From a virus: 64,000 nt of DNA. The notes beneath the pieces were generated by a model. The model worked only from the letters and a program-made list of their open reading frames with translations. It searched no databases and was not told where the DNA came from. This document shows positions 13,861-44,577 of this stretch, piece after piece; positions within the stretch are counted from its first letter, which is position 1; each line of letters starts with the position of its first letter. Position numbers and translations under genes: made by a program. The stretch lies in IMG/VR virus record IMGVR_UViG_3300028394_000036, positions 1 through 64,000 of that record; one strand, 5' to 3'.

Positions 13861-14130
13861 TTAATCGTTTAGTTGTTGTCTTTTTGATGGTAAAAATTCT
13901 TCATTAATATTTCCACACTCAAGACAAGCATACGTTGGAATTGGAATAATTCCTTCTTGTCCAGTTGGTGAAAGTAATGCAGAAATCTTTTTAAAGAATG
14001 TTACTGCATGAAAAAACTTCCCGCCACAATTAGAACAAACAATATCACTTGCTTGATTTAAGTCAACATTAATTCTTTGTCCTTCTTGTCCCGATGGTTG
14101 CCCACCTGCATTAATATCAAATACACTCAT
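13861..14130 (-). CDS. Small zinc-ribbon protein
   Basis: An 89-residue protein with two Cys pairs, CSNCGGKFF and CLECGNI, about 37 residues apart, forming a likely zinc ribbon. The N-terminal 25 residues are polar and Gly/Gln-rich. Its ATG overlaps the gp44 TGA (ATGA), so it is co-translated with the clamp loader. A transcription- or replication-associated binding role is possible, but the sequence does not decide it. Confidence 0.7.
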   Translation of the reverse strand: MSVFDINAGGQPSGQEGQRINVDLNQASDIVCSNCGGKFFHAVTFFKKISALLSPTGQEGIIPIPTYACLECGNINEEFLPSKRQQLND

Positions 14131-15071
14131 CCTTTCCTCCTTTGTTCAATTTCCATAATAATTTGAATAAACATTGCCATTGCATTTATTTCGTGGTCAA
14201 CCACAAAACTATCTTTATATTGTGTTTCTGCAATGATTAAAATAATAGTTGATACAAAACCGCTTGCGTAACTGTCTACATTATCATAGAGATAACGAAA
14301 CAGTTGATTAAAATCTCTCGCATGATTGTCTGCAAGTATCTGACGAATACCTTCAAACTTCTCTTTTTTGTTTTTATTTGATTTCAGTAAATCAACAATA
14401 GTTGAAAAGTAATTAGTTTCCACTAATGTTGATTCATCTAATTTCAGTTTACCATCGATTACGCATCGTTGAGTTGTATTAATAACTCTACGAATATCAG
14501 GATAGTTTGAATTGATAATACTAACAAGATGTTCTTTGTTATATGTAACTTTTTCGCTCTCCAAAATGCTTACGATGTGTTGTGCAACTTCTTTCTTTGA
14601 TGGTGGTACTATGTTAAAGATTTGACAACGAGATTGAATCGGGTCAATAATCTTTTCAACATAGTTACACGTTAAAATGAAACGAGTAGTTTTACTGAAT
14701 GTTTCAATTACATTACGAAGTGCTGCTTGAGCATTGGGTGTAAGATAATCACTTTCATCGAGAATAATAAGTTTTAATCCACCAAATCCAATTGAAGAAG
14801 CAAACTGTTTGATTTTATCACGAACAGTATCTACGGAGTTTTCGTCTGACGCATTGATGTAAATATAATTATCTTTTGCGATAGAGTTCGCAACAATCTT
14901 AGCGAGTGTTGTTTTACCACTACCGGCATCGCCATACAACAGTAAGTGTGGTACATCATTTGTTTTAATATATTGTTCAAACGTTTCTTTAACTGTTGGA
15001 TTCCCAACGTAAGTTTCAAGTGTTTCGGGACGATACTTTTCGTTCCAAATTGTATGAGATGTGTTAAACAT
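14127..15071 (-). CDS. 44: Clamp loader large subunit, AAA+ ATPase (T4 gp44)
   Basis: A 314-residue AAA+ protein. It begins WNEKYRPETLETYVGN like RFC/gp44 proteins, has Walker A GDAGSGKTT at 47-55, Walker B LIILDESD at about 101-108 and the RFC box SRCQIF after a sensor segment ILTCN. With gp62 it opens and loads the sliding clamp gp45 at primer ends. The C-terminal collar domain follows. A TATATTTG box lies 33 bases upstream with TTG 20 bases further, suggesting its own promoter. Confidence 0.95.
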   Translation of the reverse strand: MFNTSHTIWNEKYRPETLETYVGNPTVKETFEQYIKTNDVPHLLLYGDAGSGKTTLAKIVANSIAKDNYIYINASDENSVDTVRDKIKQFASSIGFGGLKLIILDESDYLTPNAQAALRNVIETFSKTTRFILTCNYVEKIIDPIQSRCQIFNIVPPSKKEVAQHIVSILESEKVTYNKEHLVSIINSNYPDIRRVINTTQRCVIDGKLKLDESTLVETNYFSTIVDLLKSNKNKKEKFEGIRQILADNHARDFNQLFRYLYDNVDSYASGFVSTIILIIAETQYKDSFVVDHEINAMAMFIQIIMEIEQRRKG

Positions 15072-16794: not shown

Positions 16795-17513
16795 TAATTG
16801 TTTTCCAATTTTACTAAGAAATATCTTGATTCAAAATCGTCAATATCAAATTCAACTTTTGCTAAACCTTGCGAGGAAACTTTCATTGAACCACCGTTCA
16901 AATCTTTATTTGCTGATAGAATTTCTTTGAAATACTTTGCTGAAAAAGAAATTGGTTCAAAATCTTGTTCACAAATACAATCAATATCAATTGAAATTCT
17001 ATTGGAGTTTATGTTAGCATAACCAATTACAATTTGCCATTTATTAGTCTTACCGTTTTTAAGAATAGTAAACTTCTCAATATCAGATAAAGCAGATTTA
17101 GCTTTGATAAATTTATCAATAAAATCTTTTGTAATTGACATTTCTAATTCAAATGGTGGAAGTTCTTTCAACTCTGGTGCCGGTGGAATAACTGCCAAAT
17201 CGGCTAACATATAATTAACAGTTGTGGATTTATCGCTTAACGTTAAAGCGAATGCTTTATCGTCTGCACCATTAATTTTAAATTCAATAGTGTTACCAAG
17301 AACACCAAGAAGACTTGTAAGTAAGTTTGTATCATACACACCAAACTTTGCTACTTGACCGCTGAAACTTTTTAACTTAACTTCCCCTACTACACATTTG
17401 TCATCAGAAATAAAACGAGTTGCTAATCCACCGTTTGCATTCCAAGCAACAGATTGAACTAATTTACCCAAGTGATATTTACTAATGAAGTTTAATAACT
17501 TTGATTTTTCCAT
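16794..17513 (-). CDS. 45: Sliding clamp (T4 gp45)
   Basis: A 239-residue protein matching the length and pattern of gp45: the N-terminal LLNFISKYHLGKLVQSV, a central DTNLLTSLLGVLGNTIEF strand region and the second domain starting MSITKDFIDKFIKAKSALSD. The trimeric ring tethers gp43 and, in T4, also activates late transcription. It stands between its loader and the polymerase. A TATATTTG box 32 bases upstream suggests a promoter. Confidence 0.9.
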   Translation of the reverse strand: MEKSKLLNFISKYHLGKLVQSVAWNANGGLATRFISDDKCVVGEVKLKSFSGQVAKFGVYDTNLLTSLLGVLGNTIEFKINGADDKAFALTLSDKSTTVNYMLADLAVIPPAPELKELPPFELEMSITKDFIDKFIKAKSALSDIEKFTILKNGKTNKWQIVIGYANINSNRISIDIDCICEQDFEPISFSAKYFKEILSANKDLNGGSMKVSSQGLAKVEFDIDDFESRYFLVKLENN

Positions 17514-17561: not shown

Positions 17562-20078
17562 TTAGAAAGTAAAAAACTTTTGTGCAACCTTTTTACTTTC
17601 CGTTGGGAACTCCCACTTCATTGATTCATAGAAACCTCTTAGTTTACCATCCAACTCCGATACAAATAATTCGTTTGCATCAAAGTAATTTTTAATAAAT
17701 TCTATAATTTCTACTGGATCTGAATCTCCTCTGAATGCTAATAGTTCTAAACCGTATGAGTTATTTTTTAAATATACCCACTTAACTTTATCACCGTTTT
17801 TAATTGCTGGAAACTTCGGTGGACAATTAAATAACTTTAATAGGTTATTATAATTCATCGCTGCTTTAATATGTGCAGGCGTTCCTTTTCCAAACTTACC
17901 CAAAACATCAACTGTTAAACGTTCTTGATATTTCTTAATATCTTTTATAGAAGAGTTCTTTGCCAACTCACCATACAGAACTGTACCTAAATCTCGTTTG
18001 AATTTTATAATATCTTCATCTAATTCTACTTTATCTCTACCTTTCAGAATATCAATTAGTACCGCCTTCATAAACTTCTGAAATGATTTTGGAAATGAAG
18101 AGCGAACAATATCCAATCCCTTAACTTCTAACTTGTCCATCGGAACACCGTTGTCAGAAATAATCCATAATGCATATCGCTTTTTCTTTTGCCAGAAACC
18201 TGTACGTCCAATCATCTCTTGTTTAATTTCTAAGCGATGTTTATCCGTGTTGAATACTTTCTTTGCAAATATATTGTAGAACTCATTTACATAATCTTGA
18301 ACTTCGGTTGCAATCTCATAAATCTTTGGAGTCATCAACTCAATATCGTTAGTATCAATATCAGGAAATCTATTCTTTACCAACGGTAAACAAGAAACAA
18401 ACACAGAATCGGTATCAACATATTGTACGTAATCAATATTATCTGTTATCAGTTCTTTATTATACTTCATGTTAATCGCTGCTTCAGTTTTCTTAATTAC
18501 AGTCTGACCAGAAAGTGTAACTGCTTCCGCATTATCAATATCATAGAAGCGAAATGCAGGCAAACCAAGCACACCATAGAGTGAGTTGAGTAGAATCTTT
18601 TGAACAAGTTGTCTTTTCTTATAGAATTCATACTTCGCTGTATCACCTTCTTTACCCCATTTTTTCATTTCATCTTTATACTGAACCCGCTTGTCAAACC
18701 AATCACTTAGAATTGCAGGAATCAATCCAACCTTATCGGAACTATACATCACCCCATTGGAAGCAACGGTATATTTGTATTTATCCAAAAACGCTTTTAA
18801 CTTTTCTTTTGAAACCATTTCACCAGCAACGGAATATTCTTCAATGTTACCACGAATAAAATCTTCAGCAGACCAGTTATCGATTTTAGCAATCTTTGTT
18901 TCTGGAGAAATATTCAAAGTCATAATAATGGATGGATACAGAGAAGTTAAATCTAAGTCATACATCCATTCGTAGCGGCCGGGAATTGGGTCTTTAACAA
19001 AAGCACCAATAAAACCTTGTTGACCACTCTCTCGTAACTCTGCCATCTTCTCTTGTCTATCCGCTGGCTTATTCGGTGCTACAACACTTCCAACATTTTT
19101 CAGATACGATAACAACGCACCCTCAAGATACTTTGAAGAGTAAACAAAATCCTCGTATGGAACATGACCAACGTGACAAATACCACGCACTAAGTCTATA
19201 TACTGCAACTTCTTGTCTAATTCAAGAACAAGTTCAACGTCAGTTATATTATATTCTATAAAAGTTTCAATATCGTTTTCCATCAAATCATCTAAGTTAC
19301 CTTCATACTCAACCTTACCACGTCCTAACTCAGTCATACAAACCGCATTAAGTGCATACGATGGTAGTTCTTTATAAGAGAACTTTTTATAAACAGTCAT
19401 GTAATCTAATACAGAAATACCAGCAATACTCCATCGGTTTCTATAAGGCGAAAAATACATTTCATTTATAGGTGACATACGATGCGCTTGCTTCTTACCA
19501 AGAACTCTCTTTATTCTATTATGCAAATATGGAATATCGAATGCATCACAATTCCAACCAGTCATAATGTGCGGTTGAATTTCTTCTATCCCTGCTAAGA
19601 ATTTAAGTAGAAGTGTTTTTTCATCTGGACAAGAAACTATTGTTTTATTATCCGTAGTTCTATTTCTCAATCGCTTCTGTTTATCCAACACTAACATAGT
19701 GTAATGGTTAGTTGCTGAATCATGGTAAGCGATAGAAGTTATTTCATTGTTACCCTCAGTTGCATCTGGTGTACCTGTAATCATTTCAACCTCAATATCG
19801 AATGCCATTGTAACAATTCCTTTCGATGGAATATCGGATTCATGGTACATATCAACAAGAATGCGCGTAGTTTCAGCAACATCAGATTCAAATAAGTCTG
19901 GATCATTCTTTGTGAATTCAGTTATCTTAGATAATTTATCGCCATACAATGAAACAAACTTACCGTTTGAATCTCTACGGTAGGCATATGGAGTATAGTT
20001 AAAATACAAAAGTCCTTTAGTATCATCCCATACCCACGCTTCTTTTGTATTTGTTTTAACAAATATATTTTGATACAT
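17562..20078 (-). CDS. 43: DNA polymerase, family B (T4 gp43)
   Basis: An 838-residue replicative polymerase, starting at the ATG at 20078 (AAAGG seven bases upstream). Exonuclease motifs are present: FDIEVE at 93-98, GWNCDAFDIPYL at about 174-185 and YNITDVELV at about 276. Polymerase motifs follow: A DLDLTSLYPS at 374-383, B KILLNSLYGVLG at 494-505, C YVDTDS at 553-558. The C-terminus ends KKVAQKFFTF, probably the clamp-binding peptide. It is uninterrupted, without intein or intron. Downstream genes are its clamp and loader. Confidence 0.97.
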   Translation of the reverse strand: MYQNIFVKTNTKEAWVWDDTKGLLYFNYTPYAYRRDSNGKFVSLYGDKLSKITEFTKNDPDLFESDVAETTRILVDMYHESDIPSKGIVTMAFDIEVEMITGTPDATEGNNEITSIAYHDSATNHYTMLVLDKQKRLRNRTTDNKTIVSCPDEKTLLLKFLAGIEEIQPHIMTGWNCDAFDIPYLHNRIKRVLGKKQAHRMSPINEMYFSPYRNRWSIAGISVLDYMTVYKKFSYKELPSYALNAVCMTELGRGKVEYEGNLDDLMENDIETFIEYNITDVELVLELDKKLQYIDLVRGICHVGHVPYEDFVYSSKYLEGALLSYLKNVGSVVAPNKPADRQEKMAELRESGQQGFIGAFVKDPIPGRYEWMYDLDLTSLYPSIIMTLNISPETKIAKIDNWSAEDFIRGNIEEYSVAGEMVSKEKLKAFLDKYKYTVASNGVMYSSDKVGLIPAILSDWFDKRVQYKDEMKKWGKEGDTAKYEFYKKRQLVQKILLNSLYGVLGLPAFRFYDIDNAEAVTLSGQTVIKKTEAAINMKYNKELITDNIDYVQYVDTDSVFVSCLPLVKNRFPDIDTNDIELMTPKIYEIATEVQDYVNEFYNIFAKKVFNTDKHRLEIKQEMIGRTGFWQKKKRYALWIISDNGVPMDKLEVKGLDIVRSSFPKSFQKFMKAVLIDILKGRDKVELDEDIIKFKRDLGTVLYGELAKNSSIKDIKKYQERLTVDVLGKFGKGTPAHIKAAMNYNNLLKLFNCPPKFPAIKNGDKVKWVYLKNNSYGLELLAFRGDSDPVEIIEFIKNYFDANELFVSELDGKLRGFYESMKWEFPTESKKVAQKFFTF

Positions 20079-20079
20079 T

Positions 20080-21240
20080 TTATGCCTTTTTGAATACCCA
20101 CATTGGTTCTGCAAATTTTGCTTTATCATCACAATCTATGCCAGTATCGTTCGGCCGTACTGCCATTTCCATACCCATCGTTCCTTCATATATACAATCA
20201 GATTTTTCTTTCATGTATTCTACCATAGGTTCACATATTTTCAAATACGACTTTGCTGGTCTATTATAAATGTCTGCAATATTTACAATCATTGTACCAC
20301 CGGATTTAAGAGTAGCCCATACATTATCCAACGCCTTATGTAAAAAGTTTTTGTTCCAAGAATCTATATTCTTGTACCGAACCCAACTTTGTTTATCATC
20401 GTTTGAATATCGTTCTGTATCAAAGTAAGGAGGCGATGTAAATATTAAATCAACTTTACCTATCCACTCTGAATTATCCCAATCTTCTGCGGGTGCTTCG
20501 TATAAATGTACTGATTTTTTCGTATCAAACCAACCTAATTGTTTAGAATAAAATTCAGATTGTTGTTTATAAACTTCATGATTATTTGGTGCTGGATCTA
20601 TTCCAATATATGTTTCTGCTTTATCCGATGCATAGAAACCACATAATCTATCACCCCAACCTGCTGAGAAATCCAATATTGTTTTAGCACCATACATATC
20701 GTATAATGCTTTTGCAACATTTGGTTTGAATTGAGAACAAACATATTTTCTAAGACTTAGTGAAGAACGAACCGCTGCTTTATCAATCTTTTTAAATTTC
20801 AATGTATAGAACGCTTTCGATAAAGAAATCATAGAACGAAGAGAAATCCAACTTCTTACTGGACCAGGTGAGTATGCAGCATCAACTTTCCAACGGTTTA
20901 TTTGTTGAAAATAATTTGATGCAGAGTTACCTACATTACTTCTTGAAAAGTATAACGGTTTTCCGTTCCATTCAAAATCTAAATTATAACTGTGTCTAGC
21001 TTTCCACTTACCTTCTTTCAGCATTTCTTTCCACTTAATCGCCTTCAACTTTTGAAACTCAGAAGTTGTATCTTCAATTGTAATATCAGCATAAGGCAAT
21101 GGGTATGTCATCGCTATTTCAGCGAGACGGTCTTTGACATATTCTTTATCAAATGTTTCTTGAATATACTTCCATTCTATTTCATCAATCGCAAGGTAAG
21201 GACTCATTCCTTTGAACTTGTCAAAGTAATCTAAATACAT
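20080..21240 (-). CDS. DNA methyltransferase, SPPY type
   Basis: A 386-residue amino-methyltransferase. Motif I is ILDFSAGWGDRLCGF at about 195-209, IGIDPAPNN follows as motif II, and motif IV is FTSPPYF at about 269. It shares with the 15139 gene the sequence order SPPYF, NIADI and a terminal EPMWVFKK, so the two are distant paralogues or share a family. Target sequence cannot be read. It ends one base short of the gp43 start codon, so it is expressed with the polymerase. A solitary, protective or regulatory modification role is likely because no endonuclease is adjacent. Confidence 0.8.
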   Translation of the reverse strand: MYLDYFDKFKGMSPYLAIDEIEWKYIQETFDKEYVKDRLAEIAMTYPLPYADITIEDTTSEFQKLKAIKWKEMLKEGKWKARHSYNLDFEWNGKPLYFSRSNVGNSASNYFQQINRWKVDAAYSPGPVRSWISLRSMISLSKAFYTLKFKKIDKAAVRSSLSLRKYVCSQFKPNVAKALYDMYGAKTILDFSAGWGDRLCGFYASDKAETYIGIDPAPNNHEVYKQQSEFYSKQLGWFDTKKSVHLYEAPAEDWDNSEWIGKVDLIFTSPPYFDTERYSNDDKQSWVRYKNIDSWNKNFLHKALDNVWATLKSGGTMIVNIADIYNRPAKSYLKICEPMVEYMKEKSDCIYEGTMGMEMAVRPNDTGIDCDDKAKFAEPMWVFKKA

Positions 21241-31181: not shown

Positions 31182-33035
31182 TTATTTTATCTCACACGCA
31201 CCACCTGCACACGCTAATTCACCAGACAAATCAGTATTGTCATCCATTTCTATAATTTTTGATAAATCAACATCGTGTAGTGTTTCTAGTAACTGATTAT
31301 ACTTTTCTTCTGAAATGTCTTCAAATGGTGCTTGAATATACGAGCCACCATCATAGTTAAGAACAGAAAGTCCGTTGAAATGTTCTTTGTTTTCCCACAT
31401 CCAATTACCTACCGCATCCCATTCATGTTCACGAATAGAAACTGTTGCAGAAATATTATGAGTGTTCATACCAGTTCTATGTCCTGGTTTTATCCATTGT
31501 TGATTAAACAATTTTACTCTTTCTAATAATTGTAATGGTGATTCACTACGAAGAATCGATCCCTCTGGTGCTTTTTGTGGAACACCAATTACCGCAGTAT
31601 CATGTGGTCTGAAGTATTCATCTTCAACCAGCTCTGGATGATTGATTGCAAGATAAGAATAAATTGCTTCATTCTTTCCAACACGAACTCTACGTAAATA
31701 AAATTCATTATGCCATGCATGAATACCAGATGAACACCCAAGAGTTAAAGATGATGTACCTGCTGGTTTAATTGTTGTTGTACGAGCAGATTTATTAATA
31801 TCAAGTATGGAAGCAACTCTTTCATTTTCTTCTCTTGATACTTTAGCTGCTGCTTTTAAATCCAGTTTCGTTACTTTACCAGAACCAATACCTGTCATAC
31901 CAACACCGAGTAGAGCATCTTTCTCAGTTGTTCTTTGCCAAATAGGGCGAAGATAATGGAAGTCTGTATAACCAGCTTGAAGTGTACCAATGAATGTAGC
32001 AGCACGTACTCTTGCTTCTAAATCTTCTTGGTCAGCAACATCTGATACATTTACTTCACAGAGGTTACAAAATTGGAAAGGACGAAGTGCAATTTCACAA
32101 CATGGATTTGTTCCCCAATCTTTATCGTTAGAAAGATAAATACCAGGTTCACCTGCGTTAGATAATTCTATTTTCTTCCAAAGTGATTTGAAGAATTCTT
32201 CAGATACTTTACTACGAAGAAGAACGGCAGAATTATTTGCTCTACCACGTTGCGGATCTAATTCCCACCAGTTTCCAAACTTACATGAAATCATATCGTC
32301 ATCATCTGCGGAGAAAAGAGAAATGAGAGCAGCACGACGAATACCACCTGCAAGAACTGCATCTGCAATATGGCAAACAATATCATGTACTTCAATCGGT
32401 GAAAGTTGTTCACCATCGCCTTTCAAATCAAGAATAGCACGAATTTTTTCAATACAAATTTTAAGTGGTTCAGGACCAGGTGCTTTACCACCACTTGTAA
32501 TTAAACGAGCACCTTTCTGACGAATATCTGAATAATCAAATCGAATAGAAGAACCACCTGTGAAATAAGACTTTAGTAGTGCCTTAACCGCATCAGCCCA
32601 ACCTTCAATTGAATCACCAATAAGATAACGACGTTCTTTAGATTTTGGTTTATGAATAGGAGGAAGTTGTTCTACATGGTGCTTTTGAACTGAATAACCT
32701 ACACCTGTACCGCCAAGTAAAAGAAACATTACTTCAGCAAATGCGCGCCAATCATCAATTGGTAAATACGCACAGTTGTAAATTCTATTTGGTGAAATTT
32801 CAATTGGCTTACCACCAAATTGAAGTGAACGCATCGATGGAAGTACTTTTTTATCATAAACAAACTTATAGACATTTTCAATTTCATCTACTAGTTTAGG
32901 GTATTTACGTTGGTGCATTTCTTTGTTTCTTGTTACTAACTCCGTCCAAGTTTCTCTTCTATTTACTTCTGGTAAGTAACGAGCATATTTCATATATACT
33001 GTTATCTCAGAAAGAATTCTATTGCTAATATTCAT
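31182..33035 (-). CDS. nrdJ: Class II (adenosylcobalamin-dependent) ribonucleotide reductase
   Basis: A 617-residue monomeric class II reductase, related to the Lactobacillus enzyme. Readable active-site parts: NCAYLPI with the first substrate Cys, GGTGVGYSV, the radical-site segment NPCCEIAL with Cys and Glu, FCNLCEV, and the C-terminal reductant pair C-x4-C in CAGGACEIK. It makes deoxyribonucleotides without oxygen or a second subunit, but needs host B12. It is shorter than the 739-residue type enzyme, chiefly in surface regions. Thioredoxin in this window may reduce it. Preceded by a hairpin terminator. Confidence 0.92.
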   Translation of the reverse strand: MNISNRILSEITVYMKYARYLPEVNRRETWTELVTRNKEMHQRKYPKLVDEIENVYKFVYDKKVLPSMRSLQFGGKPIEISPNRIYNCAYLPIDDWRAFAEVMFLLLGGTGVGYSVQKHHVEQLPPIHKPKSKERRYLIGDSIEGWADAVKALLKSYFTGGSSIRFDYSDIRQKGARLITSGGKAPGPEPLKICIEKIRAILDLKGDGEQLSPIEVHDIVCHIADAVLAGGIRRAALISLFSADDDDMISCKFGNWWELDPQRGRANNSAVLLRSKVSEEFFKSLWKKIELSNAGEPGIYLSNDKDWGTNPCCEIALRPFQFCNLCEVNVSDVADQEDLEARVRAATFIGTLQAGYTDFHYLRPIWQRTTEKDALLGVGMTGIGSGKVTKLDLKAAAKVSREENERVASILDINKSARTTTIKPAGTSSLTLGCSSGIHAWHNEFYLRRVRVGKNEAIYSYLAINHPELVEDEYFRPHDTAVIGVPQKAPEGSILRSESPLQLLERVKLFNQQWIKPGHRTGMNTHNISATVSIREHEWDAVGNWMWENKEHFNGLSVLNYDGGSYIQAPFEDISEEKYNQLLETLHDVDLSKIIEMDDNTDLSGELACAGGACEIK

Positions 33036-33797: not shown

Positions 33798-35150
33798 TTA
33801 GAATCCTTCTAATTCTTTGAATTTTTGTGAAAGTGCTTTCTTTACATTCTTTTCCCCTTTCATAGTAACCGTTACAGTTTTACCCATATCGGAGTTAGGT
33901 TCGTATATTTCTATATGGCCAGTCATTGTGTTTACCTTACTTGGAAATGTCATACCATCTGGACCAAACCTATTTTTAATAATATGCCATCTACCTGTAC
34001 CACCAACTTTATCATCTAACTTTCTTGATAGTGACATTACAAAGTCAGCAATCATCATTTTATTATATGATTCTGAAACCTTACCACCTTCGATAACATC
34101 GTCTTCCAATGAAGAACGATTTGCTTGTGAAGCAGTCCAAATTGGAAGTTGATATAAACCTGCAATTCCTCTAAGGTCTTCGTAAATATCGTTTAACTCT
34201 AATCTCTTATCACCTGCTTTTGCGGGTTTAATCAAGTCTGCGTAATCAACAATAATCAAATCGGGTGGTTTGCCTTGACTAATACATTTCTCTATATGAG
34301 AAGTGAGTGTGTTAATCGATGGAGTTTTTGTTGGATAATATTTAACAATCAATTCACCTTTTAAGTTCTCCATTGCTGATTTAATTTTTTCTTGTGCGTG
34401 TTCTTCGGCTAAGTTTTGAAAAGCAATCTTTGTGAAGTAAGCATCGAATCTTCTTGCAACATAATGTTGATTCAATTCAAGTGTATAATAAATAACACGT
34501 TTACCTGCTTTAACTGCATTTGCAGCAACACTTACTAAGCCCCATGACTTACCACCACCTGCTGGTGCAACTAGTACACCAAGTTCTCCTTCTGCTAACC
34601 CACCTGACATAATGTCATTTATAATATTCCAACCAGTTGGAACACACACTCTCGCACCTTCTGCATAGCGAGATATTACATCAATTTTATATTCATGTCC
34701 AATATCTTTGTCCGCTCCTGCTTTAAGTGCATTATCAATTTTCTTTTTAATCAAATCATACTTACCACTTCTTAACAAATCAACTGATTCTAATATCGCT
34801 ATTTTCATCTTTTGATTTTTACAAAATTCAAGTACAGTATTTTTAACATATTCATCATCTGAATTGTCTGTGTACTTTTTTACTTGTTTAAGTGCATCAA
34901 CTACCGTTGTTTTCAATATTTTATCTTCTACCACTAGTAATTCAGATTTGAATACATCTGATGTTGGTGGGCTTTTATATTTCTCATAATAAGAAATAAT
35001 CTTCTCAACTAACCAAGAGTTTGCCTGTGATTCAAAATAAGTTGGATCTATAAGGTCTGACACTTGTTGTAAGAATTCTCTATCTTTCAATAGTGAAATA
35101 ATTACTTTTGTTTGAAACGTTTGACCGTATTGGGATAAATTATCCTGCAT
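33798..35150 (-). CDS. 41: Replicative DNA helicase (T4 gp41, DnaB type)
   Basis: A 450-residue RecA-fold hexameric helicase. The N-terminal helical domain carries LLKDREFLQQVSDLIDPTYF; the C-terminal motor has Walker A APAGGGKSWG at about 195, LIIVDYADLIKP as Walker B and a later SRKLDDK with catalytic basic residues. It unwinds DNA ahead of gp43. Its start overlaps the RNase H end by 11 bases. No primase gene is in the window. Confidence 0.9.
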   Translation of the reverse strand: MQDNLSQYGQTFQTKVIISLLKDREFLQQVSDLIDPTYFESQANSWLVEKIISYYEKYKSPPTSDVFKSELLVVEDKILKTTVVDALKQVKKYTDNSDDEYVKNTVLEFCKNQKMKIAILESVDLLRSGKYDLIKKKIDNALKAGADKDIGHEYKIDVISRYAEGARVCVPTGWNIINDIMSGGLAEGELGVLVAPAGGGKSWGLVSVAANAVKAGKRVIYYTLELNQHYVARRFDAYFTKIAFQNLAEEHAQEKIKSAMENLKGELIVKYYPTKTPSINTLTSHIEKCISQGKPPDLIIVDYADLIKPAKAGDKRLELNDIYEDLRGIAGLYQLPIWTASQANRSSLEDDVIEGGKVSESYNKMMIADFVMSLSRKLDDKVGGTGRWHIIKNRFGPDGMTFPSKVNTMTGHIEIYEPNSDMGKTVTVTMKGEKNVKKALSQKFKELEGF

Positions 35151-36183
35151 ATATATTCCGAATCGTATTTAGATTTCCAAAATTTCTTTGTAACCAGTGT
35201 TCAAAATTAGGTATAGCAGTGTATAATTTATCTACTATAAATAATTTGTCCAATTCAATTTTATTTAGTTTTTGGATTTCACCATCGACCATGCCACGTA
35301 TAGATGATTTAAAACTTTGTGAAATATCAACATCGTGTAATTGCATAATCTTATAGTTAGTTTCTAATACACTAATGTTATTTTTGAGTTCATTGACTGC
35401 TTTAGATTTATTATCATACAATTTACAAAATTCTACGAACATATCTAAATCAATTTTTCTTTTTTCTGAAAGTATTGGGAAGTGTTTCAATATTGTTTTT
35501 TCACCAAACCCACTAATACCTTTAATGTTATCACTCTTATCGCCTAATAATGCTTTGAATAAAATAAAATTCTCACACCATACTCCAGTTTCTTCTAATA
35601 GATTTTCTGGTGTATATAACTTTTTTTTCGTTGGTAAATACACAGAAACTTGTTCTGATACCAACTGTAAAAAATCTCTATCATTCGATAATATAACAGA
35701 TTTTTCTTTCAAATAAAAAGAAAGGTAGGCAATAACATCATCGGCCTCAATATTATCCATCGATATAATGGTTAATGGCAAATTCTGTAAATAAGTAAAC
35801 AGACGAAACAGTTGAAACCTCATAGACTTTTGTTCATCCTCAAGATTCTCAAAACCCGCAACCCTATTTAATTTAGATTTATTTGCTCTACCTTCCTTGT
35901 AGTTTGAATATATTTTTTTTCTTCTTAGTGAACCACCCTTCCCGTCAAAGACCACAACAACCCGCGTGGGATTAACCATACGGACTGTTGCAGCGAGTGA
36001 TTGGAGAAAACCAGAAAGACCACCGATATGTTGCCCATCCTCGTTAAGAGTAGGAATAGCTGAAAATGTTCTTATAAATAAGTTCATTCCATCTACAATC
36101 AAAACCTTACTATCACGGTGTAAATTACCTTGTAGTTCTTTCTCAGTTTCTATTTCTTGAAGTAGTTTCTGATACTTGTTCAT
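35140..36183 (-). CDS. rnh: RNase H / 5'-3' exonuclease (T4 Rnh, FEN family)
   Basis: A 347-residue FEN-type nuclease. Metal-binding residues lie in VLIVDGMNLFIRTF, VVVFDGKGGSLRR, NIEADDVIAYL, SNDRDFLQL and the helix-hairpin region LLGDKSDNIKGISGFGEKT. It removes primer RNA during lagging-strand synthesis and trims flaps. A one-base overlap (TAATG) couples it with uvsX. The arrangement helicase, nuclease, recombinase, SSB is a compact replication-recombination operon. Confidence 0.92.
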   Translation of the reverse strand: MNKYQKLLQEIETEKELQGNLHRDSKVLIVDGMNLFIRTFSAIPTLNEDGQHIGGLSGFLQSLAATVRMVNPTRVVVVFDGKGGSLRRKKIYSNYKEGRANKSKLNRVAGFENLEDEQKSMRFQLFRLFTYLQNLPLTIISMDNIEADDVIAYLSFYLKEKSVILSNDRDFLQLVSEQVSVYLPTKKKLYTPENLLEETGVWCENFILFKALLGDKSDNIKGISGFGEKTILKHFPILSEKRKIDLDMFVEFCKLYDNKSKAVNELKNNISVLETNYKIMQLHDVDISQSFKSSIRGMVDGEIQKLNKIELDKLFIVDKLYTAIPNFEHWLQRNFGNLNTIRNIYAG

Positions 36184-37328
36184 TATAATTCGTCATCAAT
36201 TGACTGATTTGAAATAATTACTTCATCAATACGAGCAGAGTCAAGTTGTTGGTATTTCATAATTACCTTTTCTGCAATTTCATCATAAACCATTTCTTTT
36301 AATTTTGGATGATTCATAATTTTTTCAACAAAATCTTTCGATTGAAATTTAATAACTTCGCCCGTTTCTTTGTTTGTCCATGAATACCAAGCACCTGCTT
36401 GTGCAACAAGGTTATAATCTTTCATCGTGGTAAGCCAACTACTATAGTCATCTATGCCAGAATCAAAATAAATCTCGTATTCACATTCTCGTAGTGGTGG
36501 ACCAACTCTGTTCTTTACTAATTTAGCCTTTACTCTTGAACCAACGATTTCATCATGTCCTTCAACCTTTACTTTAATTGAACCGATTGAAGAGAGACGA
36601 ATACGAACGGAAGCATGAAACGGAAGTGCTTTACCACCGGGTGCTGTCCATTGATCTGAAAATGCAGGTGCATTTAGTTTTTGACGAAGTTGATTTGTGA
36701 TAATAAGACAAATGCGTTCTCTACCGATTAAATTTGTTATTTTTCTCATTGCCTTTGAAATGATAAGTGCCTTTGCAGTAGCATAACCATCTTTATCAAA
36801 ATCTGCAGCCATCTCTGTTTTAGTAGATGCACCGGCAATAGAATCAATAACTATTGTAACCAATTTATTTTTATCGGAAGAACGAACCTTCTCAATAATA
36901 ACCTCAACCGCTTCAAACACATCTTCCATTGTATCCAATGGAATGTAGAGCATGTCTTTAAGGTTCAAACCAATTGCGGTTAGATATTCAGTAGAGATAG
37001 CATTTTCTGTGTCTATGTAAACTGCAAGTCCACCTTTTCTCTGAGTGTTTAGTAGAGCATGTGCTGCTAATAGAGATTTACCTGATTGTTCTAATCCTGT
37101 TATTTCACACACTCTACCTACTGGAAATCCACCATTCTTACGATTTGAAATTGCCAAATCAAGAATTGTTGAGCCAGTACCAACCCATTCTTTTACAATC
37201 GTGGGTGCATCACTATCACCCTCAAGAAAATAAGCGGTTTTAAAATGCTGTTCTTTGAACTTTTTATTTATTGTTTCTGCAATAACTCCACCGAGTTCAT
37301 CGGATAAGTCACTCTTTGATTTTGCCAT
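36183..37328 (-). CDS. uvsX: RecA-like recombinase (T4 UvsX)
   Basis: A 381-residue RecA/UvsX protein. Walker A is GLEQSGKSLLAAH at about 56-68, Walker B VTIVIDSIAGAST at about 143-155, and ICLIITNQLRQKLNAP matches RecA loop L2 region. C-terminal residues are acidic (SIDDEL). It forms filaments on ssDNA for recombination-dependent replication. Start has a purine-rich site in the 14-base gap after gp32. Confidence 0.93.
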   Translation of the reverse strand: MAKSKSDLSDELGGVIAETINKKFKEQHFKTAYFLEGDSDAPTIVKEWVGTGSTILDLAISNRKNGGFPVGRVCEITGLEQSGKSLLAAHALLNTQRKGGLAVYIDTENAISTEYLTAIGLNLKDMLYIPLDTMEDVFEAVEVIIEKVRSSDKNKLVTIVIDSIAGASTKTEMAADFDKDGYATAKALIISKAMRKITNLIGRERICLIITNQLRQKLNAPAFSDQWTAPGGKALPFHASVRIRLSSIGSIKVKVEGHDEIVGSRVKAKLVKNRVGPPLRECEYEIYFDSGIDDYSSWLTTMKDYNLVAQAGAWYSWTNKETGEVIKFQSKDFVEKIMNHPKLKEMVYDEIAEKVIMKYQQLDSARIDEVIISNQSIDDEL

Positions 37329-37342
37329 AACGTATATCCCTA

Positions 37343-38113
37343 TTAAAATAAGTCATCGAAAGAAGAAGCAACTGTTGAAGAAGTTACCGCTTTTGTATGT
37401 TCTTCTGAATTACTGGTTTTACCCTGTGTGTTGTTTGTAGAACTTTTTACAACGTCTTCGTGTGTAGTTCCCATCCAAGTTTGTAATTGTGATTTTAATT
37501 CATCATAAGTTGGCTCTGGATAAAGTTCATTGATTTTTGGTTGCTGTTTAACTTTCTCAAGAACCGCAGGATTTTCTGTAAGTGGTGTTTGTTTTGGTTT
37601 AACACGAATAGATGTTTCTGCATACGACTTACCGATTTCTTCTGCTGACTTAACAGTAACTACAATATCACGCCCATTTTTAGGATCGGATAAATCACCG
37701 TAATCTTCATCAGCAAAAAATGTTAAAAGTTCTTCATAAATCATTTTACCAAATCCCCAAAACTTTACACCCTCGGATTCTTGCCCACGGATAATAACTG
37801 GTAAATATGTTCTCATTTTTGGTTCGAGCTTTCTTCCCATTAGCCAATCTTCTTTGTCACCTGTTTGTTTTAACTTCTCAGCAAACTCAAGAATAGGGTC
37901 AGGGCGACCATATGTTACAGGAGAAAGAATAGACCGCTTTCCTATGTTGTAATGAAAGTAAAGGTCAATGAATGGATTTTCTAAGTTGTGAACATAAGGA
38001 ACAATTCTAATTTGATGTTCACCTGGTTCTGGTTTCCAAATGTTTGAAACACGATTGTTTGTGTTTTTTAATGAAGACAAACGATTTTTAATTGCATCAA
38101 GATTGATAGCCAT
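37343..38113 (-). CDS. 32: Single-stranded DNA-binding protein (T4 gp32)
   Basis: A 256-residue SSB in the gp32 position. The core fits gp32 (FHYNIGKRSILSPV and DPILEFAEKLKQTGD, compare the T4 CPVCQYI region), a middle KFWGFGKMIYEELL, and an acidic, flexible tail ending SSFDDLF for partner binding. The zinc ligands of T4 gp32 are not present: the Cys and His positions are Ser/Pro/Tyr here, so no zinc site. It has its own promoter (TTTG, 20 bases, TATATTTG) after a terminator. Confidence 0.85.
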   Translation of the reverse strand: MAINLDAIKNRLSSLKNTNNRVSNIWKPEPGEHQIRIVPYVHNLENPFIDLYFHYNIGKRSILSPVTYGRPDPILEFAEKLKQTGDKEDWLMGRKLEPKMRTYLPVIIRGQESEGVKFWGFGKMIYEELLTFFADEDYGDLSDPKNGRDIVVTVKSAEEIGKSYAETSIRVKPKQTPLTENPAVLEKVKQQPKINELYPEPTYDELKSQLQTWMGTTHEDVVKSSTNNTQGKTSNSEEHTKAVTSSTVASSFDDLF

Positions 38114-38325: not shown

Positions 38326-39477
38326 TTACTTGACTAATGATTTAAGATGAGCCTTTACTGCCTTTGCTGTATCTCCTCTCCATGCAGAAGCATTAGAAAG
38401 AAAATAAAGAACAATAGTTTTAGCATCATCTGCACCATATCTATCTGATATATTAGTAAGCTTACTCATTGCATCAAGATACGGTTTAGCACCGAAATAA
38501 ACATTCTTCCAATCTTTCCTAATAAGGGCTGCAATGTCATGCAATGGAGTTTCTTTAGTTAATTTTGGGGTTAGCATCTGAGTTCTAATTATTTCTTTGA
38601 TTTTCTTACGTAGTTTGTTCTTCAATCGCTCATTTACATTAGACTCTAGTATCTTTACTTGTAATATATCTTTTTTATCTATGGTATCTCCATTGAAAAC
38701 AAAATTGCCATACATCTTGGCAACTGAACCGTTGATTCCTTTTTTGGTCTTGGTATCTATTGATAATTTTTTATTCATTCTATTAAAATAACTCAACATA
38801 TCATAATCTAGATCCTTAGCACCTACTATTTCTCCTGGACCTGGAAAGTTTTCATTCGTAGGTTGAATTTTATTTTTCAATCGCTCATTTACTTTCCCTT
38901 CTACTTTTGGAGCTTCAATTGGTTTTACTGGTTCTTTCTTGGGTTCTTCCTTCGGTTCTGCTTTTGGTTTTTCTTCTTCTGGAGACTGAACCGATAATTT
39001 TAATTCAGAATCAATTTCCCCTGCAATGTTATTAGCAACATTATTAATTACATTTACAAATTTTTCAATTAATTCTGCATCGCCATCAGTAAGTCTTTTA
39101 CGAATAAACAATCCAATTTTATCAATGATTTTCTGAATATCTTTTTCCCTTTGTTCTTTTTCTGCTTCGGGTAACGGTGTTGACTTTAATGCGTTCAATG
39201 ATTTGTATAATACTTTTAATGCAACCATATCAGAAAAACGAGAACCGAGAGCCATCAACTTTTCTTTGGATTCACCGTACTTATCATTTAATGAAATTTT
39301 TGAAAACCATTTTTTAATAATAGCAGAGTTTGTTGATGGAAACATACTTTTTATTAAACCACGTTTATTCTCTAAAACATTTGAAGCATCAACTAATACT
39401 GAATATCCAAGTGGACTAATTGCTCCCGCTGATATTGCTTCTTTTAATTGCTTTTTATTGCTTCTGTGTTTTTTCAT
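38326..39477 (-). CDS. Unknown, possibly packaged, protein with VNERLKNK repeats
   Basis: A 383-residue basic protein. An N-terminal MKKHRSNKKQLKEAIS has a potential prohead-protease site LKE|A. A helical domain follows to about 160, then a low-complexity Glu/Lys/Pro linker (about 170-200). VNERLKNK occurs twice, at about 200 and 285, the second followed by LRKKIKEIIR. The C-terminal 80 residues form a second helical domain. Such modular basic proteins with repeated short helices occur in T4-type phage heads. Function unknown. Confidence 0.55.
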   Translation of the reverse strand: MKKHRSNKKQLKEAISAGAISPLGYSVLVDASNVLENKRGLIKSMFPSTNSAIIKKWFSKISLNDKYGESKEKLMALGSRFSDMVALKVLYKSLNALKSTPLPEAEKEQREKDIQKIIDKIGLFIRKRLTDGDAELIEKFVNVINNVANNIAGEIDSELKLSVQSPEEEKPKAEPKEEPKKEPVKPIEAPKVEGKVNERLKNKIQPTNENFPGPGEIVGAKDLDYDMLSYFNRMNKKLSIDTKTKKGINGSVAKMYGNFVFNGDTIDKKDILQVKILESNVNERLKNKLRKKIKEIIRTQMLTPKLTKETPLHDIAALIRKDWKNVYFGAKPYLDAMSKLTNISDRYGADDAKTIVLYFLSNASAWRGDTAKAVKAHLKSLVK

Positions 39478-39860: not shown

Positions 39861-40250
39861 TTATAATGTATAAACGTTAACTAATATTATTTTTACAACA
39901 CGAAATCCATCACGGTTTTTTAACAAAGCGCAATTTCTGTATCTCTCCCATTCAATTGGATATTTTTTATCCAATACACCATTATTTAGATTCATAATAA
40001 GTTCGTTCAACGCGTTTATCGTGTAGATAGTGTTGGTTTCTTTTTTCTGATGAACCATAATAGAATTCGGTAAAAATTTCTTATATGTATCCATTACTAT
40101 ATTATATGATAATATAGAATCCTCTTTTGTGTCAAATGACTTAAATAAGAAGACTTTATTATTTAATATAGAAAAGTTTTCTTTTATACTTTGTAAAGTA
40201 TCATTTATTTGATACTTTCTCGTGAAAGTGCATACCAGTTGTGTTTTCAA
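39861..40250 (-). CDS. Unknown protein
   Basis: A 129-residue protein starting MKTQLVCTFTRKY. It looks like a small alpha-beta fold: strand, helix (INDTLQSIKENF), strand KVFLFKSF, with a C-terminal strand VVKIILVNVYTL. Key motifs not recognised. The gene is followed by a late-motif-driven pair and preceded by a 65-residue acidic protein. Function unknown. Confidence 0.5.
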   Translation of the reverse strand: MKTQLVCTFTRKYQINDTLQSIKENFSILNNKVFLFKSFDTKEDSILSYNIVMDTYKKFLPNSIMVHQKKETNTIYTINALNELIMNLNNGVLDKKYPIEWERYRNCALLKNRDGFRVVKIILVNVYTL

Positions 40251-40509: not shown

Positions 40510-41730
40510 TTAAATTCTTTTAATAGCACCAAAGTCATCACCAGCATAAACTTTTAATGTCATTCCATCAGTTTCAAAAATATTTTTTAATAAATTTATT
40601 AGGTTTTCTTCGTCTGGATGTATATCAAACACGAACGCATCGTACAAATACATAGAGAAAATGGACTTTTTATCGTTAATAACAGGTAAAACAGTTTTAA
40701 TCTTTTTCACATTATATTCAGTTTCTAACGATTGAAGTATATAATTAAATACTTTATTCGGTGTTGGATCTTGAATACCCCTGAATAGTTTGCCATAGAA
40801 GTGAGAATCAACATAACCATCCTTTTCATACCCTTCCCACAACTGATCTATAACCACTTGTACACGTTGGAAGAATGGATGTTGAATAAAGTCTGATGTT
40901 ATTCTACCATAGATGTTTTGAAACACTCTTGTTTTGAATGCGTCATACTCACCATTCATTCCTAATTCTACTTTTATTTGTTCATATGGGTGGTAGTCAA
41001 ATTTATAATCTAAAATCCTTGCTAATAACTTAATATGGAAAGCGTCATAATCAAACTGAACTATTTTCCCACCTTCAAATCTTGAGTGAATTTTATTCCG
41101 TGTACCGTCTTTTTTATTCAATGCAGAAAAGTTAAAGTTATTCCAAGCATTGCTCGGTCTACTTGTTGCGGTATACCACATATAATTTTGCTTTTTACGT
41201 TCATCACCAACAAGAATTTCATTCTTTTCTATTTCATAAAACACATTTGTAAAGTCATTGCAATAATCAATACATTGTTCGGTTATTGTCATTTCACTTC
41301 TAAACTGTTCAAACCCCAAAACATATTCCCCAATCTTCTTTGCCCACTCCAATTGATTCGCCAACGGTATAACATGACCTAAATCTTCTATTCTAAAGAA
41401 CTTAGTGGATAAAACTTCCATCCCCTTTGGATAAAATTCTCTTGGATTAATACTATCACCAGCGTAATAATGTAAATATGAATTCAAATCAATACCTTCA
41501 TTGAACCCATGATAAAGCATCGCTTTCTTGTTAAACACAAGAGAAGTTGGCGATAACTTAATATGAGTTAATTGAATATCGGAATCGAGTTCATCTGGAT
41601 GTGTAAAGTTAATATACCTATCTGTACCATCGGTTAATCGAAAGTACAGACCAATTACTGTGGTATCAGAAGAATGCTTGTTCCAATTTGAAAGTAATGG
41701 AACACAAACGCACGATTTATCTTGAAACAT
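40510..41730 (-). CDS. Family A DNA polymerase-like protein
   Basis: A 406-residue protein resembling the polymerase domain of PolA. YTATSRPSNAWNN at 186-198 corresponds to the RxSSSxPNLQN region; motif A is QFDYDAFHIKLLA with D227; motif B (O-helix) is K266-x3-F270-x3-Y274-G275, as in PolA K758/F762/Y766; KVFNYILQSLE matches the N-x-x-x-Q segment; motif C is LYDAFVFDIH with D364, where PolA has HDE. The O-helix Arg and the motif C Glu are replaced. The first 150 residues may be a reduced exonuclease domain. It is shorter than Klenow. Activity is plausible but untested; it lies among late genes, away from gp43. Confidence 0.7.
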   Translation of the reverse strand: MFQDKSCVCVPLLSNWNKHSSDTTVIGLYFRLTDGTDRYINFTHPDELDSDIQLTHIKLSPTSLVFNKKAMLYHGFNEGIDLNSYLHYYAGDSINPREFYPKGMEVLSTKFFRIEDLGHVIPLANQLEWAKKIGEYVLGFEQFRSEMTITEQCIDYCNDFTNVFYEIEKNEILVGDERKKQNYMWYTATSRPSNAWNNFNFSALNKKDGTRNKIHSRFEGGKIVQFDYDAFHIKLLARILDYKFDYHPYEQIKVELGMNGEYDAFKTRVFQNIYGRITSDFIQHPFFQRVQVVIDQLWEGYEKDGYVDSHFYGKLFRGIQDPTPNKVFNYILQSLETEYNVKKIKTVLPVINDKKSIFSMYLYDAFVFDIHPDEENLINLLKNIFETDGMTLKVYAGDDFGAIKRI

Positions 41731-41758: not shown

Positions 41759-42418
41759 TTATACGTCATATATACTAAATTCTCTTGGATTATTTAGTAG
41801 TGTTGGTAATATACGAGATTTTATTGAATATCTCTCAACAATTCTTAAATTAGTATCAACCACACCTGGTTTTATCAATAAACCGTCTTTATTGAAAACA
41901 TCATATTCTGGTCCTACTATTTTCCAGGGAACTTCTATCAACTCATACAAATATCTGTTTATGCCCATTTCGTCAGAACCATATCCAGCTGTTTGAGAGT
42001 AATCTATTTCAAAAAATACACGATTTGGCTCATTTCTTTTTGAAATAAAAAATCTTCTCATCTTTCCATCTTTTAATTCAGATTCATTTATAACTCTACG
42101 AACTGCTCTTGGTGCTTGATATTTATAGAGTTGATGACTACCACCTTGCATTATTTTTTTCTTCTGACCTTTTACAACAGTAAATTGTTTCAAATCTAAA
42201 TATCTGAAATATGTTTCAGTTCTATCTTTATATCTAATTAACCGTTTTGAACGAATTGGATCCCAATCTGGCTCACTAAAAACTTCGCCAGTAGTGTATC
42301 TATGATAAAATCCAACATACTCTTCCCAATTCTCTAATGCCATAAATTCTTTTTCATTAGCAAACAAGTTTCTTTTTATTTGATTTTCAGAATAATATAT
42401 CTTAGCTCTTAAAGCCAT
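41759..42418 (-). CDS. Probable baseplate/virion structural protein
   Basis: A 219-residue protein beginning MALRAKIYYSENQIKRNLF and with long basic and aromatic strands (LIRYKDRTETYFRYLDLK). It belongs by position to the baseplate block: next genes are the hub-like, LysM and repeat-rich proteins. I have the impression of similar proteins in other T4-like marine phages but cannot name a family. No catalytic motif. Called structural on context. Confidence 0.5.
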   Translation of the reverse strand: MALRAKIYYSENQIKRNLFANEKEFMALENWEEYVGFYHRYTTGEVFSEPDWDPIRSKRLIRYKDRTETYFRYLDLKQFTVVKGQKKKIMQGGSHQLYKYQAPRAVRRVINESELKDGKMRRFFISKRNEPNRVFFEIDYSQTAGYGSDEMGINRYLYELIEVPWKIVGPEYDVFNKDGLLIKPGVVDTNLRIVERYSIKSRILPTLLNNPREFSIYDV

Positions 42419-42444: not shown

Positions 42445-44577
42445 TTACTTTGGGAAAGCGCTCTTAAATCTAGCTGCTGTATTTAATGTTGTTTCCCAAC
42501 CAGCAGCACTTACTTTATGTTGTATAGTTGTTATCGTGAAAAACATTATACCTGCATAATGGGACGGAATTAAATTTGTACTTACTGCGTCTCCGAATTT
42601 CCAACCAGAACAACCATCCATTGTTACAGAAAAATCTATTGGATACAGAGCACGCTCCAACCAAGCGCCATCACTTCTGTTTTTCTTTTTTTCTGCCAAT
42701 GCAGCTTTATACGCGTCACCCCATTGATTATTAAAACCTGTGTCTATTAATTGAACCACTAAATCAGCAAGAGTTTTATCAGCTTCTGAATCTTTCCCTA
42801 CTCCACCTTTAATAGAAACATCACCATCGCCAGTACCACCACCTCTTGTTGTAAATGCTGCTGTAGCAAATTCAGCCGGTGCTTTACAAGATATTGAAAC
42901 CGATTTAATCATCGGTTTTGCCATACTTGCAATAATTGAAGTAACACCAATATTCGGAGTAAAATATGTATCTTCGACTGATAATGATGATCGTTTTACT
43001 CCTACACCACCACATGTACTAACTTCATCTACAAGCGTTACTGATAAAGCATAGTGTCCTCCTGCTGCATCATTTACTATTTTTACTAATCCATTCAAGA
43101 ATCCAGTTAAATTTTTCTCATTAATATCAGTTGCACTATCGAGAAAGTGCTGTTTATACATTTCTTTAACATGATCACATGATATTAAAATGTCACCTAT
43201 ATTTGTTACTCCAGTTGTTGTAGCTGTCCTAAATGTGCCAATTCCTGGATTTTGAAAAGTAGTTGCACCATATACTGCTCCAGCGCTATTAAACCACATA
43301 CATTTCATGGGATAAGCAGATACTATTTCATACCCACTTGTCCAATTTTGATCTATATCAACTTGAGTGATCTTCCCTAAATGAGTCGCTTGCACGGCCT
43401 TATCAATAAATTCGCCAATATCTCCAAGTTTTACATACCAAAATTTCTTAACTGGTGGTATAGCGGTAACAGGTGGTGTACCAGGTGGTGTACCAGGTGG
43501 TGGAGGTGGTGGTGGAGGTGGAGGTGGTGTACCGGGTGGTGGTGGAACCGCATCAATTGGTGGCACAACCTCTTCGGTTGTTGGTGGATCTGGTTGCCAC
43601 GGCACACCCAACCAATAATATGTAGGTATCCATTTCGATGTACTAGGACCAGTACCAGACTGACCTGCCGTAACAGGAGTTGCAGTTGGTGGTGTACCAG
43701 GTGCACCGGCTGGTACTGGTGGAGGTGGTGGTGGTGTTCCAGGTGCACCTGGTAATGCGGTTGGAACAATAGGATTTAAGGTTGCCATATCTTCATCGAT
43801 AACCGAAGGTAAGTTTCTACCGTTTATCGATAATTGTTTTGGGTCTAATGGTCCAGAAGCAGGCGGCGTACCAGGTGGTGTACCAGGTGGTGTTCCAGGT
43901 GGTGTTCCAGGTGGTGTTCCAGGCGCACCTGCTCCTGCTGCTCCTGTTGCTCCTGTTGGAGGACCACCTGCTTTACCAACTGTACTCGTATCACCTGATT
44001 TTCCCAATGCAACGGCAGAAGCGGATACTACTGATGTTGTTGCACTAACAGACATATCAGTATTCACATTCCAATTAAAATTTGTTGTTATTCCTGTAAA
44101 GCCGAATCTCGATGCACAAGCAACTGCTGCAAATGTTGACCAACCAAACGCTATCCCAATTGGTCTTCCTGGACTAAAGTAGTTTTTCTCAATACCGCCT
44201 AAATTCATACCACCCATAGTCACCAATGGATAAACAGTAAAAGAAAAAGAACCTTTTATCATTGAACCCATGGGTCCTTCGTTTGTAACATCTATACTAG
44301 TTAGTAACGGAAATTTCGGTAAGTTACGAGTTTCAGAATACATAGTCAACTTACCTGATGAATCTGACATCAACGGTGAATGTGCAAACCCCAAACCAGT
44401 AGGACCTCCTCCAATTTTACCCCAACTTTTTTTACCGTATGCCCAATATAAACCACTTCCAACTCCATCACCTGGTGCTCTAACTTTAGCACCCAATATA
44501 GCACCACGTGCGTTTGCTTCTGCAGCACCTGCACCTGCTACCTTTATAAAAACATTATCGTTATTTTTAAAAGCCAT
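42445..44577 (-). CDS. Baseplate hub-like virion protein with Pro-Gly-Thr repeat linkers
   Basis: A 710-residue protein. N-terminal (1-200) and C-terminal (400-710) beta-rich domains are separated by low-complexity regions of PGTPP repeats and polyproline (about 210-240, 270-300 and 335-375). The last 50 residues, IMFFTITTIQHKVSAAGWET and AARF, match the end of gp27/gpD-type hub proteins, where a strand ending ...H.i....W.T is typical. It is next to a LysM wedge protein. Role as hub is an inference from that ending and position. The linkers could be flexible or surface-exposed. Confidence 0.55.
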   Translation of the reverse strand: MAFKNNDNVFIKVAGAGAAEANARGAILGAKVRAPGDGVGSGLYWAYGKKSWGKIGGGPTGLGFAHSPLMSDSSGKLTMYSETRNLPKFPLLTSIDVTNEGPMGSMIKGSFSFTVYPLVTMGGMNLGGIEKNYFSPGRPIGIAFGWSTFAAVACASRFGFTGITTNFNWNVNTDMSVSATTSVVSASAVALGKSGDTSTVGKAGGPPTGATGAAGAGAPGTPPGTPPGTPPGTPPGTPPASGPLDPKQLSINGRNLPSVIDEDMATLNPIVPTALPGAPGTPPPPPPVPAGAPGTPPTATPVTAGQSGTGPSTSKWIPTYYWLGVPWQPDPPTTEEVVPPIDAVPPPPGTPPPPPPPPPPPGTPPGTPPVTAIPPVKKFWYVKLGDIGEFIDKAVQATHLGKITQVDIDQNWTSGYEIVSAYPMKCMWFNSAGAVYGATTFQNPGIGTFRTATTTGVTNIGDILISCDHVKEMYKQHFLDSATDINEKNLTGFLNGLVKIVNDAAGGHYALSVTLVDEVSTCGGVGVKRSSLSVEDTYFTPNIGVTSIIASMAKPMIKSVSISCKAPAEFATAAFTTRGGGTGDGDVSIKGGVGKDSEADKTLADLVVQLIDTGFNNQWGDAYKAALAEKKKNRSDGAWLERALYPIDFSVTMDGCSGWKFGDAVSTNLIPSHYAGIMFFTITTIQHKVSAAGWETTLNTAARFKSAFPK
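43471..43555. repeat. Pro/Gly-rich low-complexity repeat (polyproline region)
   Basis: Degenerate 15-base and shorter units, read on the plus strand as variations of ggtggtgtacca and ggtggtggt, encode GTPP and polyproline in the hub-like protein. Slippage-prone. Confidence 0.8.
43861..43925. repeat. 15-bp tandem repeat encoding PGTPP
   Basis: Four to five units of ccaggtggtgt(a/t) in tandem with only third-position changes encode PGTPP repeats. Recent expansion by slippage is likely. Confidence 0.85.

Follow-up and report, generated by a model that had tools for sequence, protein, structure and literature searches.

A divPolA1-type family A polymerase homologue at the boundary of tail and replication genes in a T4-like phage

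We analysed a stretch of 64,000 nucleotides (the window; positions 1 to 64,000 of the IMG/VR virus record IMGVR_UViG_3300028394_000036) around a gene for a 406-aa protein. A preliminary description, made from the sequence alone, had read this protein as a second, family A-like DNA polymerase with a reduced exonuclease part. Tail and baseplate genes lie upstream, including 219-aa, 710-aa and 111-aa baseplate-like genes. Downstream, on the same strand, come a 65-aa ORF, genes for proteins of 129, 108 and 383 aa, and then gp32, UvsX, a 5' nuclease, gp41 and ribonucleotide reductase (RNR). The main features of this block are as follows.

41759-42418, minus strand: 219-aa protein encoded next upstream of divPolA1 and retained at this place across the family (198 loci; no significant Pfam or PHROG match)
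40510-41730, minus strand: divPolA1-type protein, 406 aa, ATG start; palm and fingers of a family A polymerase, thumb almost absent, exonuclease-like N-terminal remnant (ORF; fold and profile match to Klenow; homology to immuto divPolA1, PMC11348598)
40268-40465, minus strand: 65-aa ORF between divPolA1 and the 129-aa gene (similar ORFs in 82 loci)
39861-40250, minus strand: 129-aa protein, predicted alpha/beta fold (reciprocal genomic neighbour of divPolA1)
37343-38113, minus strand: gp32-type single-strand DNA binding protein (PF08804, E 1.6e-10; phrog_1192, E 8e-15)
36183-37328, minus strand: UvsX/RecA recombinase (phrog_97, E 2.8e-70)
35140-36183, minus strand: stand-alone 5'-3' nuclease of the Pol I small-domain type (PF02739, E 2e-32)
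33798-35150, minus strand: DnaB-type replicative helicase, gp41 (phrog_19, E 3e-75)
31182-33035, minus strand: ribonucleotide reductase (phrog_367, E 2.8e-127)

The preliminary description had placed the gene among late genes, outside the replication operons. It sits instead at the boundary of tail and replication genes, where it heads the run from gp32 through UvsX, the 5' nuclease and gp41 to RNR. The T4-type late motif TATAAATA occurs 19 times in the window against 12.6 expected, a count reached by 5 of 100 shuffles and thus no clear enrichment, and the stretch immediately upstream of the gene has no copy on the gene's strand. We observed the same gene order in Microcystis phage Mel-JY01, in the Flavobacterium immuto phages and in representative loci below 60% identity; it persists in relatives that share only 24-30% identity. 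Among 219 loci, the 129-aa gene was present in 217, the single-strand DNA binding protein in 211, RecA in 206, the 5' nuclease in 186 and the helicase in 157; 216 of these loci have at least 4 kb of downstream sequence, and contig ends often remove the later genes. We note that the C-terminal 90 residues of the 383-aa protein (38326-39477, minus strand), encoded before gp32, match phrog_13953, a family of unknown function (E 4e-24). The 710-aa protein of the baseplate region (42445-44577, minus strand) carries long Pro/Gly/Thr-rich repeats (PPGTPPGTPP) that give rise to spurious ORFs in other frames.

The phage was also said to possess gp43 already, and we confirmed an intact family B polymerase (PolB), which is accompanied by other replisome genes:

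17562-20132, minus strand: gp43-type family B replicative DNA polymerase with intact motifs DLTSLYPS, KILLNSLYG and VDTDS (PF00136, E 1e-40; phrog_262, E 1e-184)
16794-17513: clamp-like gene
14127-15071: clamp loader
98768-99652 of the whole record (G000), outside the window, minus strand: DnaG-type primase, 41% to the immuto phage primase (homology)

With a complete gp43-type PolB, a clamp loader and a clamp-like gene in place, the 406-aa protein is the second polymerase homologue of a phage that has a T4-type replisome, and together with the DnaG-type primase these genes cover both bulk synthesis and priming. An ATP-type DNA ligase domain, sought as PF01068 only, was not found in the whole 177-kb record, which is possibly incomplete and holds other T4-type replication genes; hence a complete phage set for Okazaki-fragment maturation is not established. 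The Mel-JY01 homologue of the 35140-36183 nuclease bears the annotation 'DNA polymerase I' (TIGR00593), a label that may give a wrong idea of polymerase content. The PolB of one relative (L091, the record of L037) is split into two open frames of 610 and 306 aa, and PolB matches in the 484-kb phage LR756508 likewise fall in two frames.

Assignment of the 406-aa protein to family A runs through its relatives, because the single sequence gave no match at all to PF00476, nothing significant in Pfam or PHROGs, and only a chance HSP70 match in the PDB. A profile built from 85 relatives, by contrast, ranked Klenow first among PDB entries (E 4.3e-5) and picked up the Twort and E. coli PolA proteins. 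The immuto homologue scored 42.7 bits against PF00476 (cut-off 34.3), and 51 of the 85 diverse members matched this family at E<=0.01. An AlphaFold2 model of the 406-aa protein (pLDDT 95.3, pTM 0.92) had Klenow (1kfd) as its best PDB match in Foldseek (E 6.9e-15, TM 0.73, 549 columns). Thus, of what the preliminary description proposed, the palm-fingers fold is predicted with a pLDDT of 95 and a TM of 0.73 to Klenow, while the PF00476 match is missing for the single sequence and found only among the relatives. Fold and family profile together identify the protein as a predicted family A polymerase homologue, and fold, profile and homologues also agree with the reduced exonuclease part. We considered a T7-type single-subunit RNA polymerase as a candidate and rejected it; T7 RNA polymerase was not reported by the 85-relative profile, and the PDB matches listed were DNA polymerases.

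Alignment of the same profile with E. coli Pol I, whose residue letters we verified, placed the motifs in register as listed here.

41149-41166, minus strand: T189-x-R191-P-S-N194 motif, equivalent to TGR668LSS of Pol I (conservation in 90 members and register with E. coli Pol I)
41035-41052, minus strand: motif A, D227-Y-D229-A-F-H232, with D227 at D705 and H232 at E710, the steric gate position (conservation and register)
40906-40947, minus strand: motif B or O-helix, Y262-x3-K266-x3-F270-x3-Y274-G275, with Y262 at the R754 site of Pol I (conservation and register)
40732-40746, minus strand: N329-x3-Q333, equivalent to N845/Q849 of Pol I (conservation in 90 members)
40624-40644, minus strand: motif C, Y363-D364-A365-F-x-F-D369, where HDE of Pol I becomes YD[S/A] (conservation in 90 members)

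The remaining equivalences are K758 to K266, F762 to F270, Y766 to Y274 and H881-D882-E883 to Y363-D364-A365. The catalytic and O-helix residues named in the preliminary description (D227, K266-x3-F270-x3-Y274-G275, N329 and Q333 of the N-x3-Q segment, and D364) are therefore all where it put them and in register with Pol I, and it was also correct that the O-helix Arg (R754, now Y262) and the motif C Glu (E883, now A365) have been replaced.

We assessed conservation in 90 members clustered below 80% identity and reaching down to 24% identity. Ten residues were invariant (T189, R191, P192, D227, D229, H232, K266, Y274, Q333 and Y363), and six more were conserved in 89 of 90 members (N194, Y262, F270, G275, N329 and D364). 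Position 365 was Ser in 57 members, Ala in 32 and Met in one. Relative to Pol I, the fixed replacements are thus Glu710 to His, Arg754 to Tyr in nearly the whole divPolA1 family, and motif C HDE to YD[S/A]. Two features set apart the subclade of the window protein and Mel-JY01: the equivalent of His734 is lost (Glu or Asp in 11 members, His in 79), and motifs A and B are 39 residues apart, whereas this distance is 53 in E. coli and 45-46 among the immuto-type members. Purifying selection acts on the gene (dN/dS 0.09-0.17), and full-length ORFs were found at 343 of the 383 loci examined. Given this selection, the conservation across 90 members and the Klenow matches of both profile and model, the motif agreement is more than chance.

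The thumb and exonuclease parts are strongly altered. In the profile alignment, the distance from the IExN motif (IExNG segment) to the TxR motif (TGR) is about 20 residues versus about 125 in Pol I, so that the thumb is nearly absent; the AlphaFold2 model shows one long helix followed by short strands in this stretch. In global alignments, by profile and by structure, the Klenow exonuclease is matched by the N-terminal 120 residues; as far as the sequence tells, no acidic pattern is seen at the D355/E357/D424 positions.

Similar genes occur in other phages. Using tblastn, we detected matches to the 406-aa protein in Mel-JY01 (46% identity), in the 484-kb uncultured phage (32%) and in the immuto phages (MW353175-7; 29.6% identity, 88% coverage, E 4e-28), where the gene carries the label 'DNA polymerase family A'. 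The name divPolA1 comes from Yutin et al. 2024 (Virol J 21:200; PMC11348598), who applied it to an additional PolA that they found in 14 phages (155-190 kb), the three immuto phages among them. They described retained main catalytic residues, a truncated thumb, an inactivated exonuclease and replication genes downstream, a context that suggests a role in replication, and found divPolA1 beside a regular PolA, PolB or PolC (PMC11348598). In the literature searched, the name occurs only in that paper and its preprint. Because the 406-aa protein is homologous to the immuto genes and fits those defining features that sequence and model allow to be judged, we assign it to divPolA1. In our tree, the divPolA1 members cluster apart from regular PolAs (support 100/100), with long reference branches, and the window protein and Mel-JY01 form a separate long-branched subclade (support 100/100).

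A single scan of IMG/VR could confirm as many as 594 relatives, and the family now spans several hundred metagenomic phage contigs. The homologue from the jumbo phage retrieved no viral contigs through its own peptide patterns, and contigs were obtained once it was used in an alignment. When genome contigs of bacteria and archaea were scanned by pattern, a single relative turned up, in a metagenome-assembled contig, and a plasmid scan gave none. We therefore rejected a cellular or plasmid origin; within the sensitivity of these scans, the family looks restricted to phages. The expectation that such a protein would be unusual beside a T4-type replisome does not hold, since the same arrangement was published in 2024 and recurs in hundreds of contigs.

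The 129-aa gene downstream is reciprocally linked to divPolA1. Of 50,697 phage records, six hold the 129-aa gene, as two different queries showed, and these are precisely the six that hold divPolA1, although they represent only three lineages; the gp32 homologue, by comparison, was found in 57 records. Searching in the opposite direction, we found 80 viral loci through the 129-aa protein, and divPolA1 was present in 38 of them, including all 28 with at least 5 kb of upstream sequence; the remaining 42 have too little upstream sequence for its presence to be judged. The model of the 129-aa protein is confident (pLDDT 92.5), its fold has no significant match in the PDB (best E 0.2), and none of 48 members matches PHROGs. 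The six shared records, the 217 of 219 loci, the 28 long loci and the fold without a significant PDB match lead us to put forward, tentatively, that the two proteins form a polymerase of two obligate components, with the small one taking over from the missing thumb through DNA grip, processivity or gp32 coupling. We hold this arrangement to be unlikely, though worth considering, and treat the linkage as a lead and no proof, as it could also stem from shared ancestry of a conserved gene block without physical interaction.

Judged from its sequence, the 406-aa protein probably still works as an enzyme. Its catalytic core for metal binding (D227 and D364) and the O-helix K/F/Y-G residues are retained, and with almost no thumb and an apparently dead 3'-5' exonuclease remnant, synthesis is expected to be slow, distributive and non-proofreading. 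The real doubts about activity arise elsewhere. In Pol I, H734, R754 and K758 contact the triphosphate. As R754 is replaced by Tyr and the His734 equivalent is gone in the subclade, nucleotide affinity may be poor or the substrates changed. By analogy with characterised enzymes, A365 and H232 appear to be lesser concerns. The Tt72 phage polymerase is active with a natural Asp-Ser motif C (PMC9324360); its D384A/D615A mutants retain 4% activity, S616A retains 76% and E389A, at the E710 position, 35% (PMC9324360). Motif C of the Twort DNA polymerase also reads HDS. On these grounds A365 and H232 need not abolish activity.

Our favoured explanation, to which we give somewhat better than even chances, is that divPolA1 is an active auxiliary DNA polymerase of low processivity that does not proofread. 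Its most likely task would be to fill short gaps or extend 3' ends during recombination-dependent replication and the maturation of lagging strands. With the adjacent stand-alone 5' nuclease it would form a split counterpart of the host Pol I, perhaps with the 129-aa protein as a partner. Bulk synthesis would be left to gp43 with its clamp and loader. The most serious competing idea, which we nevertheless think unlikely, is that the protein has been repurposed: catalytically weak or dead, it would bind primer-templates or serve as a scaffold for the gp32/UvsX/gp41 assembly. Loss of the R754 and His734 equivalents, the thumb and, apparently, the exonuclease active site would fit such a role, and because two of the three triphosphate contacts are lost in the window/Mel-JY01 subclade we keep it under consideration. 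However, the catalytic Asp residues, K266, Y274-G275, R191 and Q333 are essentially invariant in a very divergent family, and a mere scaffold would not need them.

The altered active site could alternatively point to a polymerase with a changed substrate, one that makes or extends RNA-containing primers much as a primase or an RNA polymerase would. An invariant His (H232) replaces the steric gate Glu, Tyr occupies position 262 in 89 of 90 members, and YD[S/A] resembles the HDS of T7 RNA polymerase motif C; moreover, one publication proposes that the related TV-Pol proteins act as primase-polymerases (PMC2579912), and another raises the possibility that divPolA2 is an RNA polymerase (PMC11348598). 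We judge this improbable, since the phage has its own DnaG-type primase and DNA polymerases are the best matches by structure as well as by profile, with T7 RNA polymerase not reported. HDS and Asp-Ser are likewise found in the Twort and the active Tt72 DNA polymerases, and F270 and Y274, both of DNA-polymerase type, are retained. A specialised late role or one tied to the tail, such as that of a nucleic-acid enzyme packaged or used with the baseplate, would agree with the baseplate-like genes directly upstream, whose order is also kept, but the downstream genes serve replication and recombination and the late motif is neither clearly enriched nor found just upstream on the gene's strand, so that we consider this highly unlikely. 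Least credible of all is a decaying relic of a horizontally acquired polymerase; the long branch of the subclade and the lack of a PF00476 match might suggest one, but the low dN/dS, the predominance of full-length ORFs and the invariant catalytic residues largely refute it.

Whereas divPolA1 was first described from 14 phage genomes, these results extend it to several hundred metagenomic phage contigs. They also make a thumbless PolA, predicted to be non-proofreading, a fixed part of the gp32-UvsX-gp41 replication module in a large group of T4-like phages. If active, divPolA1 would be among the smallest family A polymerases and would show how little of Pol I catalysis needs. Activity would also raise the testable question of why a second polymerase is retained in the recombination operon of a phage whose gp43 replisome is complete. 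The reciprocal 129-aa neighbour offers a concrete candidate partner.

Comparison with known systems places the protein among family A polymerases as follows. With Pol I and Klenow it shares the palm-fingers fold, and the equivalents of R668, D705, K758, F762, Y766, N845, Q849 and D882 are in register; it differs in its missing thumb, in showing no exonuclease catalytic acids, and in the changes E710 to H, R754 to Y and HDE to YDA. TV-Pol (Iyer, Abhiman and Aravind 2008; PMC2579912) is similarly a minimal family A-type polymerase without nuclease domains, found in mobile elements that include a Microcystis phage. However, TV-Pol has RxxxK in the fingers where our family has Y262-x3-K266, with Tyr in 89 of 90 members, and it occurs with D5 helicases, resolvases or integrases and without a link to nuclease genes (PMC2579912), whereas the neighbours here are gp32, UvsX, a 5' nuclease and a DnaB-type helicase. 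Fingers motif and gene context thus do not fit TV-Pol. The divPolA2 of barbaviruses is also a second, exonuclease-less PolA beside a PolB, but the published description sets it apart by an unrelated N-terminal domain and a variable neighbourhood (PMC11348598). The closest likeness is to divPolA1 itself, with an extra PolA beside a regular polymerase, palm catalytic residues D227, D364, K266 and Y274, a truncated thumb and replication genes downstream. Compared with other divPolA1 proteins, the window protein is long-branched, lacks the His734 equivalent, has an A-B spacing of 39 and is invisible to PF00476, and its regular companion polymerase is a PolB, in contrast to the PolA of the immuto phages. 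This kind of protein has been known since 2024, and what we add are residue-level signatures, a divergent subclade, a much wider distribution and a linked small protein.
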